From positions 1 to 36,957 of the forward strand of contig JAAWAY010000060.1 in assembly GCA_022792415.1 (NCBI GenBank): a DNA stretch of 36,957 nt, read 5' to 3'. Below are positions 8,501-22,381 of this stretch, in pieces. The notes below the pieces were generated by a model that saw only the letters and a list, made by a program, of their open reading frames with translations, made no database searches and was not told the origin of the DNA. The position numbers and the translations under genes were made by a program. Positions within the stretch are counted from its first letter, which is position 1; the number at the start of each line of letters is the position of its first letter. The stretch comes from Eggerthellaceae bacterium (GTDB lineage: Bacteria > Actinomycetota > Coriobacteriia > Coriobacteriales > Eggerthellaceae).

Positions 8501-9153
8501 ACGACCAGGCGCCGGCCCCGCCCCGCACCGCGGACGGCGAGCGCTGGCCCCCGCACCTCGCGGCTGACCCCGACGAGGCCACCGACGTGGGCAGCGCCTT
8601 CCACCGCCTGGCGCAGCTGGACGCGCTGGCGGGCCCGGACGCGGCCCGCGCGGCCGTGGGATCCCAGGCCCGCGCCCACGGCGTGTCCGACGAGGGGCGC
8701 CTGGCCGCGGCCCTCGCGCGCTGGCTGGGAAGCGACGTGCGCGCCCGCGCCCGCCGCGCCCCGGTGCTCGAGCCCGAGCTGCCCTTCGCCGTGCCGATCG
8801 ACGGCGGGGCGGTGCTCCACGGCGAGCTCGACCTGCTGGCCGCCGATGCGCCCTGGGCCGCGCCCGGCGGCGCGGCGCTGGTGGTGGACTACAAGACGGG
8901 GGGCTGGGCCTCCGAGACGCCGGATGAGGTGCTCGCCAAGCACGGGCTGCAGGCGGCCTGCTACGCCTACGCCGTGCTCACGGCCGGCTACGACGCGGTG
9001 GAGCTGGCCTTCGTCCGCGTGGAGCAGGCCGACGCCGCCGACCCGCGCCAGCCCCAGGTGGCGGCCTACCGCTACGCCGCGGCCGATCTGCCCGCCCTGC
9101 GCGAGGCCGTGCTGGGGGCCCTCTGCGCGGCCTCATCCGACGACGCGTCCTGA
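5533..9153 (+). CDS. addA: AddA-like UvrD-family helicase-nuclease
   Basis: 1206-residue protein, the motor and second nuclease subunit paired with the preceding gene. The GTG at 5533 has GAGAGGAGG upstream and overlaps the addB stop by 4 bp; an in-frame ATG at 5491 lies inside addB and is less likely. Superfamily 1A motifs are all visible: Walker A AGAGSGKT (27-34), Walker B VDEFQDTN (D353, E354), GDSQQSIYRFQGAD, LDRNFRSH, TAHGSKGLEFPLV and FYVAATRASEALL. A linker rich in Ala, Pro and Gly (about residues 930-1010) leads to a C-terminal RecB-type nuclease with VVDYKTGG (D1119, K1121). Both subunits thus carry nuclease motifs, as in AddAB rather than RecBCD. Confidence 0.9.
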   Translation: MNLDALSLTEAQRASIEHVSGPLLLCAGAGSGKTFTLQQRIAYALSPESGPAVDGIERVMAITFTEKAASEIKSRVRAALRAEGMLDAALKVDGAWISTIHAMAGRILRAHALELGMDPAFAVLDDVAADALRHRAYQAALDAAERDGDTGPALLLAEYPPSSAERAVSAESLVMAVLERASTLAGGLDALDWGPVGARTPGAVARELAVAYAEVAELPLTEKQALAVEEAREALGAYLADPGEPDDDGWRGLLEVLAGLGKPRVSKSVAEGVTRLHQQLDKALLEANLGLGGLMAGRLMALARATEAEYVRLKERAGAVDMADQLRLALAALRDHPAIAEALRERFQLVMVDEFQDTNQLQIDLIERICRPGAANLCTVGDSQQSIYRFQGADVDVYLGHKRAMASPEVGALCLSLDRNFRSHGDVLAFVRRVCGRPGYFVEDFLDLQPGRDEGAVVARGRHYRGEGPRIAVQAVAYSPRGAGGAAARQVEAAGIARWFAELRDAGHRAGEMVLLMGSMNPAPAYADALRAEGFSCVMAGGSGFHATAEAALAGYLLRALAQPEDTEALYAVLAGELFCLGADDLMELATLFSEEQEAPDALPRRCSIGRKAFPRVPEAASPRLALALGVMQRAWWDVGRVRPSRLVRRVLAESGHLGRLAGQGADGEARAANLLKAAALVEDLEAGGRDMVGVARAWADHAGDKEKLGALVGEAGDAVTIMTAHGSKGLEFPLVAVVDCYDGKADAGRLQMLVADGRAQASLLPSASATGLDARPRGAQRYDALFEEERDALMPGAGSVAAVLGAPTPAFYRTAMGAAAADEAALERRRLFYVAATRASEALLVSCRVQRTKEGPKLQAVQQDVADALFEGEGFPAEDRLVDFGGSGPLSYRFADADALAAEAAAGEGSCGVESGEAGEAPAPDAPDAVLVTYPAPAAPPRLPRGQAGRPDDGLVSYSALAEAGGGAAPVPSSVPDGGGVPASRDAGDDQAPAPPRTADGERWPPHLAADPDEATDVGSAFHRLAQLDALAGPDAARAAVGSQARAHGVSDEGRLAAALARWLGSDVRARARRAPVLEPELPFAVPIDGGAVLHGELDLLAADAPWAAPGGAALVVDYKTGGWASETPDEVLAKHGLQAACYAYAVLTAGYDAVELAFVRVEQADAADPRQPQVAAYRYAAADLPALREAVLGALCAASSDDAS

Positions 9154-9185
9154 GGCCCGGCCGCGCGCCGTCCCGCCGTGGCCCG

Positions 9186-19497: not shown

Positions 19498-19962
19498 CTA
19501 GTTGGTCTCGACGGGCTCCTCGGCGCCCTCGGCGGCGGTCGGGGTGGACGCGGCGGCCTTGTCCTGGGCCGTCAGGTCCTGGGACCCGGCGTCGTTCGCG
19601 GTGATGGGGGCGTTGGAGTCGGCGCTGATGGTGCTGCCGTTGACCTCAGTGGGCTCCTCGGCGCCCTCGGCGGCCGTCGGGGTGGACGCGGCCGTCAGGT
19701 CCTGGGCCGTCTGGCCGGCCTGGTCGAGCGGGGTGGCGTGCAGGGTGAGGGCGGCGTGCTCGATGGGGGCCAGCAGGCCGTCGGCCAGGGCCTCCTCGTC
19801 GACGATCTCCGTCACGCTCACGTGGTTGGGGCCGGTGGTCTGCGGCGCGCCCTCCTCGGCGAGGGCGGGCTGGGCCTGCAGCAGGGCCATGGCACCGCCC
19901 ACGAGGGCGCACAGCCCCAGGGTGCACAGCCCGGTGCTCAGCTTGGTCATTGCGTTGCTCAT
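19498..19962 (-). CDS. Small secreted protein with internal duplication, function unknown
   Basis: 154 residues, ATG at 19962 with GGAAGGA upstream. A clear Sec signal peptide (LCTLGLCALVGGAMALLQA, cleavage near AQPALA-EE) is followed by a low-complexity mature chain rich in Ala, Thr, Glu and Asp with no cysteine. The block STPTAAEGAEEP occurs twice (about residues 93-104 and 138-149); the second copy ends the protein. There is no LPXTG anchor and no lipobox, so it is presumably released or loosely attached. I do not recognise the family. The upstream TAAGAT on the minus strand at 20090-20095 is a possible -10 box. Confidence 0.75.
   Translation of the reverse strand: MSNAMTKLSTGLCTLGLCALVGGAMALLQAQPALAEEGAPQTTGPNHVSVTEIVDEEALADGLLAPIEHAALTLHATPLDQAGQTAQDLTAASTPTAAEGAEEPTEVNGSTISADSNAPITANDAGSQDLTAQDKAAASTPTAAEGAEEPVETN
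19513..19692 (-). repeat. Pair of 42 bp direct repeats inside the secreted protein gene
   Basis: Positions 19513-19554 and 19651-19692 are identical except for one base. They encode the repeated STPTAAEGAEEP block. Near-identity at DNA level points to a recent duplication or ongoing slippage/recombination. Confidence 0.8.
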
Positions 19963-20120
19963 GATGTGTCCTTCCGCTTGAGCTGGCTCGCCATGGCGGG
20001 CGCGGCTTCCGATCTGCCGATGGGCCCGGGGGACGCCCGCCGGGTGCTCGCGCGCCCGCGTGTGGTCCCTCGGCTCGGCTCTCAGGTCGATCTTAGGAAG
20101 CGGCGCGGAGGGCCTCCCTG

Positions 20121-20145
20121 AGGCCGCCCCATCCGTGGGCGGCCT
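20121..20145. other. Perfect 9 bp hairpin in the intergenic region
   Basis: AGGCCGCCC and GGGCGGCCT around a 7 nt loop. It lies in the gene-free stretch 19963-20418, which otherwise holds the promoter side of the secreted protein gene and the palindromic element at 20225. No U-tract. Confidence 0.45.
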
Positions 20146-20224
20146 GTGGCGCGCCCGTCAATCGCAGGTCACCGAGATGCCCCGGGACGCCGGGCCGCAT
20201 CACCCGAGGGACGGGTCGCGCGCC

Positions 20225-20386
20225 CTTCGTGCCAGAAAACGGCTCGATTCCGAGGCAGGCAAGCTCCCCAGCCTTGCCGTTCGCAGCGTTTTCGCAGGTC
20301 GCCTTCGCCTCGGCATCCTCTGGTGGCTCCCTTGTGCCCGTCTAGGGGCCGAAAACCTCGGAATCGTGCGGTTTTCTGGCATGAAC
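20225..20386. repeat. Palindromic element A (31 bp inverted arms, about 162 bp)
   Basis: Left arm 20225-20255 and right arm 20356-20386 are reverse complements at 27 of 31 positions; the shared core is TGCCAGAAAAC and CGATTCCGAGG. The 100 bp centre is unrelated to that of element B but also contains small hairpins (GGCAAG/CTTGCC). The right arm ends 32 bp before the nuclease-like gene. The same arm sequence recurs, with 28 of 31 matches, at 21487-21518 and 21629-21660. Confidence 0.9.
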
Positions 20387-20404
20387 GCACCAGTTGCCCC
20401 GTGC

Positions 20405-20410
20405 TAGACT
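20405..20410 (+). promoter_or_regulatory. -10 box of an apparently leaderless mRNA
   Basis: TAGACT lies 8 nt before the ATG at 20419, which would place the transcription start at or next to the start codon. The -35 region would fall at the outer edge of the right arm of element A. No Shine-Dalgarno is present. Confidence 0.45.
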
Positions 20411-20418
20411 TCCGCCCC

Positions 20419-21375
20419 ATGGGTGTCATTCTCTGTCATCGCTCGGCCTTCGACCTGCACCGGATGGACTGTCCCACCGAGCCGTTCTCCGGTAGCCTGG
20501 CCGCAGCGTGGGAAGGCGGAGATGTAAACGCGCGATTAGCCGATGTCGTCCGCCGGTCACCCTCGCAGGCGCGCTACCTGCGGGAACCCTACCATCTCCT
20601 CGTGCCGGGTGAGGTGAAGCGCCGTCCGTCTCATGGTGTCGTGCTCCATGGGGCGGGTGTCCCTCTGCCATCAGGATCGCTCCGGCGCGTGGCACCCGGG
20701 TTGCTGGTCGTGTCAGTCGAGTGCGCCTTGCGCCAGATGTCGGCTGACGAGCGCCTCCTCGACATCGTGCTCCTCTGCTATGAGGCGTGCGGCTGCTACC
20801 GAATGGGCCCAGGTGAGGATCGCCTCTTCGATCAGGGGCGTTTGACCACGGTCGACAGGCTGAAGCGCCATGTCCAGGCGAGCGCTGGCCTGCCGGGCGC
20901 GGGTGCCTTGGGCCGGGCGCTGCGCTTCGTGCGCGACGACTCGTTCTCGCCGGCCGAGACTGCCGCGGTGCTCCTGCTGTGCCTGCCGCGTCGGATGGGC
21001 GGCTATGGGCTGCCGTGGCCGGAGATGAACCATCGCGTCGATTTGGGCGCACGGCGTCGCTCGGCGGCGGGCCGGTCCTACCTGATATGCGATTTGTACT
21101 GGCCTGGATCGCGTCTGGACGTCGAGTACGATAGCGATCTGTGTCATACCGGATCCCAGCGCATCGCCCAGGACGCCATGCGCCGTGCCGACCTCTTCGA
21201 CCGAGGTATCAGCGTTCTGACCCTGACGAAGGGCCAGCTCTACGACGAGGAGGGCCTTGACGTCTTCGCGGCGGTGCTCGCACGCCAGCTTGGATATCGG
21301 TTGCGTCCGGTGGACGCGCGGGGACTGGCATCCAGGCGCGCGCTTCGATCGGAGCTGCTTGGCTCGCGTTGTTGA
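20419..21375 (+). CDS. Putative PD-(D/E)XK (Vsr/DUF559-like) nuclease of unknown function, flanked by palindromic repeats
   Basis: 318 residues from the ATG at 20419; the open frame upstream runs through element A and is not counted. The N-terminal about 200 residues match nothing I recognise; they contain a LVVSVECALRQM segment reminiscent of the middle of actinobacterial AbiEi/DUF559 proteins. The C-terminal part reads like a DUF559/Vsr endonuclease core: ICDLYWPGSRLDVEYDSD (D225, E236, D238, D240), H243 shortly after, then DAMRRADLFDRGISVLTLTK. The usual E-x-K is E-Y-D here, as in Vsr-like variants, so activity is uncertain. GC content and codon use are visibly less extreme than in the neighbours, suggesting transfer. 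Leaderless-looking start. The flanking inverted repeats suggest a repeat-associated or mobile unit. Confidence 0.7.
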   Translation: MGVILCHRSAFDLHRMDCPTEPFSGSLAAAWEGGDVNARLADVVRRSPSQARYLREPYHLLVPGEVKRRPSHGVVLHGAGVPLPSGSLRRVAPGLLVVSVECALRQMSADERLLDIVLLCYEACGCYRMGPGEDRLFDQGRLTTVDRLKRHVQASAGLPGAGALGRALRFVRDDSFSPAETAAVLLLCLPRRMGGYGLPWPEMNHRVDLGARRRSAAGRSYLICDLYWPGSRLDVEYDSDLCHTGSQRIAQDAMRRADLFDRGISVLTLTKGQLYDEEGLDVFAAVLARQLGYRLRPVDARGLASRRALRSELLGSRC

Positions 21376-21426
21376 CGCTTGTCTGTGTTTGGTGGGCGAT
21401 TCCGCCAATAGCGACCAGGGTCTCTT

Positions 21427-21452
21427 GTGGCGAGGCATTCCCGCTGCGCCAC
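21427..21452 (+). terminator. Hairpin downstream of the nuclease-like gene
   Basis: GTGGCG and CGCCAC pair around a 14 nt loop, 50 nt after the stop codon. No U-tract; a weak terminator candidate. Confidence 0.3.
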
Positions 21453-21486
21453 GGTCCGCCGGCTAACGGAAAGGGGGAATCCAGGC

Positions 21487-21660
21487 GGTTCGTGCCAGAA
21501 AACGGCGCCATTCCGAGGCTAGAGGCGACATGTCGGGGCGGCTCGGCACGTCTTGCGGGCGTTTCCCCAGGTGACGGATCATCCAATCGCGGGGCTCTCC
21601 GCCCGATCGTCGCAGAAATCGGTTCCAACCTCGGAATGGCGCCGTTTTCTGGCACGAACC
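21487..21660. repeat. Palindromic element B (perfect 32 bp inverted arms, 174 bp)
   Basis: Arms 21487-21518 and 21629-21660 are perfect reverse complements over 32 bp (starting GGTTCGTGCCAGAAAACGG and ending CCATTCCGAGG). The 110 bp centre has minor dyads (CGACATGTCG; CCGAT/ATCGG). Perfect arms with a divergent centre point to maintenance by selection or recent conversion. Together with element A it brackets the nuclease-like gene; the outermost arms at 20225 and 21660 have the geometry of terminal inverted repeats of a 1.44 kb unit. No clear target-site duplication is visible. Confidence 0.93.
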
Positions 21661-21691
21661 GCCCCACGAACCGCGCCCGCCCCCGCGCGCG

Positions 21692-22381
21692 TCAGCCCTC
21701 TACCACCACGCCGAGGCGGCGCGCCAGGCCCGCGGCCTGGATCAGGTCCATCTTGCACCCGCGCACCTCGTCCATCGCGTCGGACAGCACGATGCCCTCC
21801 AGCTGGCACCCGCGCAGGTCGATGCCGGCCAGCGACGTGCGGAAGAAGCTCGTGCCCACCAGCTTGACGTCGTCCAGCGCGACGTGGCGCAGGCTGGCCT
21901 CGGACACGTCGGCGCCGGACAGGTCGCAGGTGCGCGCGGCCACCGCCCACAGGCGCGCCTGGGTGAGCGCGCACAGCCCGCACGCGCAGCCGTCCAGCGT
22001 CACGTCCTCCAGGTTGGCCTCCAGAAACGACGCGCCCGTCAGCTTGCAGCCCGTGAACGAGCAGCGCCTCAGGTCGGCCTGGTCGAGCACCGCGTTGGAC
22101 AGGTCGCACTCCACGAAGGCCACGTCGGAAAGCGACGCGCCCTCCAGGAGGCAGCCCGCCAGCCGGCAGCCCTCCAGCCGCGCGCCGGACAGCTCCAGCT
22201 CCGCCAGGTCGCGCCCGCACGCGTCGACGCCCGTCACCACCAGGCCCTCCCACGGCTCGTCGCCCGGCTCCCACGCGGGCAGCGCGGACAGCGCGCGGGG
22301 GTCGCGCGGCTCGGCCGGGGCGGCAGGCGGGCGCGGCGCGGCGCCGAAGGCCTCGGCGGCGTGCAGGTGCGACAGGCTCAT
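21692..22381 (-). CDS. Pentapeptide-repeat protein
   Basis: 229 residues. After a 45-residue Pro/Ala-rich start, pentapeptide repeats of the A(D/N)Lxx type run from about residue 58 to 205 (examples: CDLSNAVLDQADLRRCSF, GASFLEANLEDVTLDGC, CDLSGADVSEASL). They predict a right-handed quadrilateral beta-helix of about seven coils. Cysteine often occupies the outward or first positions. The end (CKMDLIQAAGLARRLGVVVEG) is a helical cap common in this family. Members mimic DNA (Qnr/MfpA, gyrase protection) or have unknown roles; nothing here proves gyrase binding. It lies 19 bp downstream of pyrE, with a weak ribosome site. Confidence 0.88.
   Translation of the reverse strand: MSLSHLHAAEAFGAAPRPPAAPAEPRDPRALSALPAWEPGDEPWEGLVVTGVDACGRDLAELELSGARLEGCRLAGCLLEGASLSDVAFVECDLSNAVLDQADLRRCSFTGCKLTGASFLEANLEDVTLDGCACGLCALTQARLWAVAARTCDLSGADVSEASLRHVALDDVKLVGTSFFRTSLAGIDLRGCQLEGIVLSDAMDEVRGCKMDLIQAAGLARRLGVVVEG

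Follow-up and report, generated by a model that had tools for sequence, protein, structure and literature searches.

REPtrons (RAYT/TnpA-REP) consist of an enzyme gene bordered by genome-dispersed repeats that are enzyme-specific and co-evolve with it (PMC8266576); the enzyme, RAYT, is an HUH (Y1) transposase, and the REPs, 20-40 nt long, are single-stranded hairpins that carry a GTAG motif. The locus described here is similar in that its enzyme gene is likewise bordered by cognate repeats dispersed in the genome, but the enzyme has a Vsr/PD-(D/E)XK fold, the repeats are elements of ~120-210 bp (typically ~160 bp) built from two 25-35-bp arms and a CCWGG-containing core, and one genome holds several enzyme-arm pairs side by side. 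The nuclease domain shares its fold and its E, D, H and D residues (E180, D225, H243 and D252) with I-Bth0305I, an EDxHD homing endonuclease that reportedly forms a dimer on a target almost 60 bp long (PMC3943268). Unlike that phage intron-encoded enzyme, the gene studied here shows no intron sign and is bracketed by two intact elements, and a core is common to many dispersed putative targets of different enzymes. The type IV antitoxins AbiEi and Rv2827c (COG5340) bind 23-bp inverted repeats and autoregulate, and AbiEi bends DNA (PMC7319586); inverted repeats would serve as sites in both cases, and the fold of the C-terminal antitoxin domain is found in the N-terminal half of the protein studied here. 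This protein, however, seems to have no matching winged helix and is fused to a nuclease, its elements are dispersed in the genome, and no AbiEii (DUF1814 NTase) toxin partner was seen in the one downstream ORF scanned. Adlercreutzia and related gut bacteria look to harbour an undescribed kind of enzyme-plus-target mobile system.

The window, by which we mean the whole stretch of 36,957 nucleotides that was analysed, comes from a metagenome-assembled genome (77% complete) whose 234 contigs add up to 2.39 Mb. Judged by the window gene, its closest named relatives are Enterorhabdus sp. P55 and Adlercreutzia faecimuris JBNU-10, and we therefore place the host in the Adlercreutzia group of the Eggerthellaceae. 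The nuclease gene and its two flanking elements comprise the following features:

20226-20385: element A, whole, with 30-bp arms (27/30 matched) and a 100-bp centre
20226..20255, + strand: left arm of element A, TTCGTGCCAGAAAACGGCTCGATTCCGAGG
20283..20306, - strand: core of element A, reading GAAGGCGACCTGCGAAAACGCTGC on that strand, 17.8 bits
20356..20385, - strand: right arm of element A
20419..21375, + strand: nuclease gene, 318 aa, homologue of Coriobacteriia DUF559/REase_MTES_1575 proteins
20419..20934, + strand: N-terminal domain, residues 1-172, with a fold as in the AbiEi C-terminal domain
20941..21297, + strand: nuclease domain, about residues 175-293, Vsr/EDxHD fold
21484-21663: element B, whole, with 35-bp arms (35/35 matched) and a 110-bp centre
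21484..21518, + strand: left arm of element B, GGCGGTTCGTGCCAGAAAACGGCGCCATTCCGAGG
21556..21579, - strand: core of element B, reading ATCCGTCACCTGGGGAAACGCCCG on that strand, 22.5 bits
21629..21663, - strand: right arm of element B

An earlier sequence-only reading of this DNA had described two inverted arm pairs around a single gene, and this arrangement is confirmed, with the matched lengths revised from 27/31 and 32/32 to those listed above; extended to 45 nt, the arms of element B are still 91% matched. That the elements flank the gene likewise holds, with corrected distances: 33 bp from the end of element A to the ATG and 108 bp from the stop to the start of element B, in place of 32 and 111 bp. 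The same reading had considered terminal inverted repeats of a mobile unit, which does not fit the layout, as each side carries a complete arm-core-arm element. All four arms belong to one family, TTCGTGCCAGAAAAnnGCnCnATTCCGAGG, inverted about centres of 100 and 110 bp. A gene for a pentapeptide-repeat protein (window 21692-22381, - strand) ends 28 bp past element B.

The reading had made its proposal depend on the repeat recurring in the genome and on homologues of the protein carrying flanking arms, and both were found. When up to three mismatches to the arm core were allowed, four matches were obtained in the window against 0.00 expected from 100 dinucleotide shuffles, which excludes chance; pattern searches of the host genome returned 17-19 arm matches, compared with 0 for a reversed-pattern control. 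Eight complete inverted pairs were recovered, namely A and B themselves and one each on contigs C133, C144, C146, C194, C197 and C210, along with a single arm at the end of a contig and an everted pair (C165, L026:3955-4059), in which the arms face the opposite way and are separated by 53 bp that include a CCCAGGT core. Outside the window the arm pair thus recurs at about seven places. Contig C194 (L027, 11,961 bp) has the same element sequence at both of its ends, either an assembly repeat boundary or a duplicated segment. Within the family the arms are conserved and the centres diverge, being mostly not homologous apart from the core. A second arm family of the same genome, AGCCAAAACCGCGAGTTCTCCGAGG (L025:2929-3108, L027:11733-11894 and L030:3867-4046), lies very near window-family elements at several places, in some almost abutting them. 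Since its arm resembles the one found with the A. faecimuris orthologue of the nuclease, this second family may represent an older generation.

Six paralogues of the window protein are encoded in the host genome, several of which adjoin long inverted repeats with other arm sequences, and homologues are present in 29 of the 41 genomes searched, with up to 14 in each. One inverted-repeat detector was run on the DNA around 67 homologues, with random intervals of A. faecimuris as the baseline. An inverted repeat lay within 900 bp of 43/67 homologues, compared with 11% of random intervals, and 20/67 had inverted repeats on both sides, compared with 0.7%; a relaxed detector raised these counts to 50/67 with any element and 25 with both sides, and left 17/67 without a detectable element. 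The elements were found about equally downstream (31) and upstream (32), the upstream one often within 400 bp of the gene. Independently fetched named genomes gave the same picture, with elements on both sides in Gordonibacter and also beside homologues in Ca. Rubneribacter and A. murintestinalis.

The sequence of the arm differs from one nuclease to the next. Across the 20 bracketed genes, local scores between the upstream and downstream arms of the same gene ranged from 12 to 40, as compared to a mean of 6.7 and a maximum of 13 between genes (n=380), and each nuclease therefore has a private arm. This accounts for the absence of the window arm pattern from all 40 relatives searched, and the named-genome scan was likewise without a match. 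Close homologues retain similar arms and carry a weak overall correlation between arm similarity and protein identity (Spearman 0.13-0.20); run separately for the N- and C-terminal halves in search of the recognition domain, this correlation was not decisive.

Although the sequence-only reading was right that the centres differ while the arms are conserved, it had missed one short common core. Motif discovery in the ~100-bp centres, blind to the arms, returned one motif, YGACCWGGGnWWWYGC, with a mean of 10.9 log-units against 5.7 in shuffled loops; in refined form it is present in 85/128 elements against 17/2560 shuffled loops, and nearly all arm families have it. Of seven elements from the complete genome of another genus (G006) that had played no part in building the motif, five scored 16-21 bits for it and the other two 8.4 and 13.7 bits, and in another arm family of the host genome it reached 17-23 bits in three elements and 12.6 in a fourth. 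Its orientation relative to the gene is either way. A similar-looking stretch of the SRP RNA gene, GTTTACCAGGTCAGG, raised the possibility that the core is a piece of that gene, which was rejected because the matrix does not select it: the best score in the 3-kb SRP RNA locus of the host genome was 9.2 bits, outside the gene. The core contains CCWGG. Vsr acts at CTWGG/CCWGG-type sites, and membership of the core in the site family of Vsr-type enzymes is only a lead.

The position of the core relative to the arms is phased. On the left side the core-to-arm distances group at 38-39, 48-50, 59-60, 70 and 80 bp; on the right side the groups fall at 40-41, 50-51, 60-61 and 71-72 bp. The Rayleigh R at a 10.5-bp period is 0.63 (left) and 0.64 (right). 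Since members of one arm family are not independent, the analysis was repeated with one element per arm cluster (n=25), and the phasing persisted (p 2e-4 and 8e-5) and was strongest at a period between 10.5 and 11 bp. A repeat of ~10.5 bp is expected of a double-stranded DNA complex with its sites on one face of the helix and argues against an RNA or single-stranded DNA hairpin; it points to an element that works as a looped double-stranded complex rather than as a folded single strand, and the palindrome or hairpin framing of the earlier reading is not supported by these helically phased distances. Rfam returned no match above threshold, and none to introns in 19900-22000; its sole match, a sub-threshold MIR1437, was rejected as a chance long hairpin.

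A census of 800 kb of A. faecimuris, restricted to inverted repeats scoring 16 or more, yielded 60, compared with 1 and 4 in local shuffles. By arm they group into families with 10, 7, 5, 5, 4, 4, 3 or fewer members. The core is present in most of the larger families, and the arms of most correspond to those next to a resident nuclease. Outside elements the core is rare, at ten sites in the 800 kb, some of which are probably degenerate elements. One family has five copies, only one of them with the core, which may reflect the use of another core, or decay:

L160-L199; G001 C3:141643, 170491; C2:350541, 500515: arm family GCGCACATTTTTTCAACTTTGTCGC of A. faecimuris

In G006 the arm of one nuclease occurs 12 times at about nine sites (control pattern 0). 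Four of these elements (L256, L258, L260 and L261) have long flanks in common, of up to 1.1 kb, and several copies adjoin paralogous dmsC-like genes, with L260 and L261 carrying dmsC-like anchor genes. The shared flanks and the paralogues together indicate that some G006 copies spread by duplication of their neighbours and not by the enzyme; as duplication of the neighbouring dmsC-like gene accounts for them, these copies were rejected as proof of mobility.

Sixteen columns of the protein alignment are invariant among 23 diverse members, and E180, D225, E236, H243 and D252 are identical in 66/66 aligned homologues; the invariance of these active-site residues implies that catalysis is under selection. 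In an AlphaFold2 model (pLDDT 85.6, with residues 240-243 poorly placed), the C-terminal half matches I-Bth0305I with Z 8.6 and rmsd 2.7 over 96 residues, the Neisseria endonuclease-like protein NGO0050 with Z 8.5 and Vsr (1cw0) with Z 6.6, and profile searches agree with a nuclease fold (DUF559, MTES_1575, 3r3p). The earlier claim that a PD-(D/E)XK-type enzyme is associated with dispersed inverted-arm elements is thus borne out by this Vsr/EDxHD fold together with the elements flanking homologues. In Pfam the window protein has no match and does not reach the curated cut-off of DUF559 (PF04480), and 12/23 homologues, about half, show weak DUF559/REase_MTES_1575 matches (best 1.2e-6); DUF559-like homologues from actinobacterial classes outside the Coriobacteriia differ in having no core-bearing elements at the 17 loci examined. 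The likeness to the Vsr mismatch endonuclease lies in the fold and in the CCWGG of the core, but the sequence match is too weak for membership and there is no sign of a mismatch-repair role.

Modelled alone, the N-terminal half matches residues 67-195 of AbiEi (6y8q) with Z 8.4 and rmsd 3.5 over 120 aligned residues, and Rv2827c with Z 5.8; the AbiEi match comes from one aligner and does not appear in the Foldseek list, which held no convincing N-terminal match. The matched region starts at residue 67 of AbiEi, after the winged helix, and the DNA-binding winged-helix domain seems to be absent here. AbiEi and Rv2827c bind their repeats through that unmatched domain, so that for the N-terminal domain a part in arm recognition is only proposed.

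The window is syntenic with A. faecimuris over most of its length, which allowed empty and filled sites to be compared in a close relative, as the sequence-only reading had suggested. One such site was found:

9111..9176: empty site, where A. faecimuris has a paralogous element-nuclease-element unit of 2,978 bp (C3:382678-385656) between the same neighbours

The empty site lies at the end of an AddA-like helicase-nuclease gene; intergenic DNA between the congeners is too diverged to align, so that the comparison reads presence or absence of the unit and not its exact insertion points. Two further units are flanked by duplications. On contig C118 of the host genome (L034:2461-4589), a nuclease unit with another arm family sits between the two copies (95% identical) of an 87-bp direct repeat, a duplicate of the 3' end of the adjoining gene (SpoU/TrmH-like by eye); at this site A. 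faecimuris lacks a nuclease and has a lone element from a third arm family. In another genome (G024, L135:1831-4353), a nuclease lies between two direct 317-bp copies, 93% identical, each comprising a neighbour gene end and an element. In A. faecimuris the window gene has an orthologue at the corresponding locus, bracketed by an element pair of its own; the outer half of the arm has changed in the lineage, and the inner end, TTCCGAGG, is kept. The presence and absence of units between congeners and the flanking duplications, read from genome comparison, favour a system that is mobile or recently mobile.

We posit a homing-like selfish system, a reading to which we give an even chance, in which arm recognition, looping and nicking or cutting at the core would lead to recombinational spread. 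The nuclease, probably as a dimer, would recognise its own family of elements by their two inverted arms of 25-35 bp, and the ~100 bp between the arms would be drawn into a loop of an integral number of helical turns, bringing the conserved CCWGG-containing core close to the catalytic domains. Nicking or cutting at the core would follow, and repair by recombination with gene-bearing copies would spread both gene and elements; the dispersed solo elements would be targets, or leftovers. We infer each of these steps, from arm binding to repair-driven spread; what the data show are arms specific to each gene, a core common to the elements and its helical phasing, an invariant active site, dispersed copies, whole units that are present or absent between congeners and duplications flanking two units. 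In the classic homing layout the gene interrupts its own target, and the position of this gene between two intact targets speaks against homing. The 17/67 homologues without a detectable element, the DUF559 homologues outside the Coriobacteriia, the A. faecimuris arm family that mostly lacks the core and the G006 copies spread by gene duplication also count against this reading.

The strongest rival is a domesticated system, followed by an autoregulated defence-type nuclease. Were the system domesticated, the nuclease and its elements would serve the host, by shaping chromosome architecture or by acting in recombination or repair at fixed positions, a role already proposed for RAYT/TnpA-REP, with elements kept by selection and rarely spreading; conserved arms around diverging centres, an active site invariant in old paralogues and the retention of the window gene at one locus in A. 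faecimuris with its own element pair are all compatible with this. As many as 14 paralogues per genome, a patchy spread over 29/41 genomes, presence/absence between congeners and species-specific, fast-turnover arms look selfish rather than housekeeping, and we regard domestication as unlikely. Somewhat less probable still is a defence or toxin-antitoxin-like nuclease whose elements are operators bound through the AbiEi-like domain, the dispersed copies acting as decoys or self-marks that restrain an enzyme aimed at invaders. The fold of the N-terminal half, the autoregulation of AbiEi and Rv2827c through 23-bp inverted repeats (PMC7319586) and an upstream element often <400 bp from the gene would suit such a role; elements are, however, downstream as often as upstream and also lie at dispersed sites without a gene, no partner toxin gene was seen (the ORF scanned directly downstream encodes the pentapeptide-repeat protein, on the other strand), and PADLOC matches were weak only.

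Two other readings appear highly improbable. The size of ~160 bp, the inverted ends and the dispersal of the elements are reminiscent of MITEs, which would make them units of an ordinary DDE transposon with the nuclease as a passenger, but the arm sequence follows the individual nuclease gene, within a family most centres show no homology beyond the core, and no transposase was noticed beside the elements in the loci read. Equally, there is very little to expect from transcribed RNA hairpins acting as a guide, antitoxin RNA or processing signal for the nuclease: the long, almost perfectly paired arms would fold well as RNA, yet core-to-arm spacing follows the helical repeat of B-DNA, the core is used in either orientation relative to the gene, and Rfam is silent above threshold.

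The homing-like reading would make these loci a new class of bacterial mobile system in the Coriobacteriia, a proposition that we consider evenly balanced: many parallel Vsr-fold nucleases in a single genome, each with a private inverted-arm family, all acting on one phased CCWGG core, so that address (the arms) and reaction site (the core) form separate modules. No prior description of such elements was found in the open-access literature, which was the scope of the search (subscription journals lay outside it). If this is true, the system would constitute a second, unrelated solution to the logic of REPtrons, on double-stranded DNA, and would provide a substrate for the largely uncharacterised DUF559/MTES_1575-like nucleases of the Coriobacteriia. 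The enzyme-arm pairs of one genome would form a natural orthogonal set of long-target nucleases, whose recognition code could be deduced from sequence co-variation, and a good part of the long inverted repeats that these gut bacteria carry would be explained.
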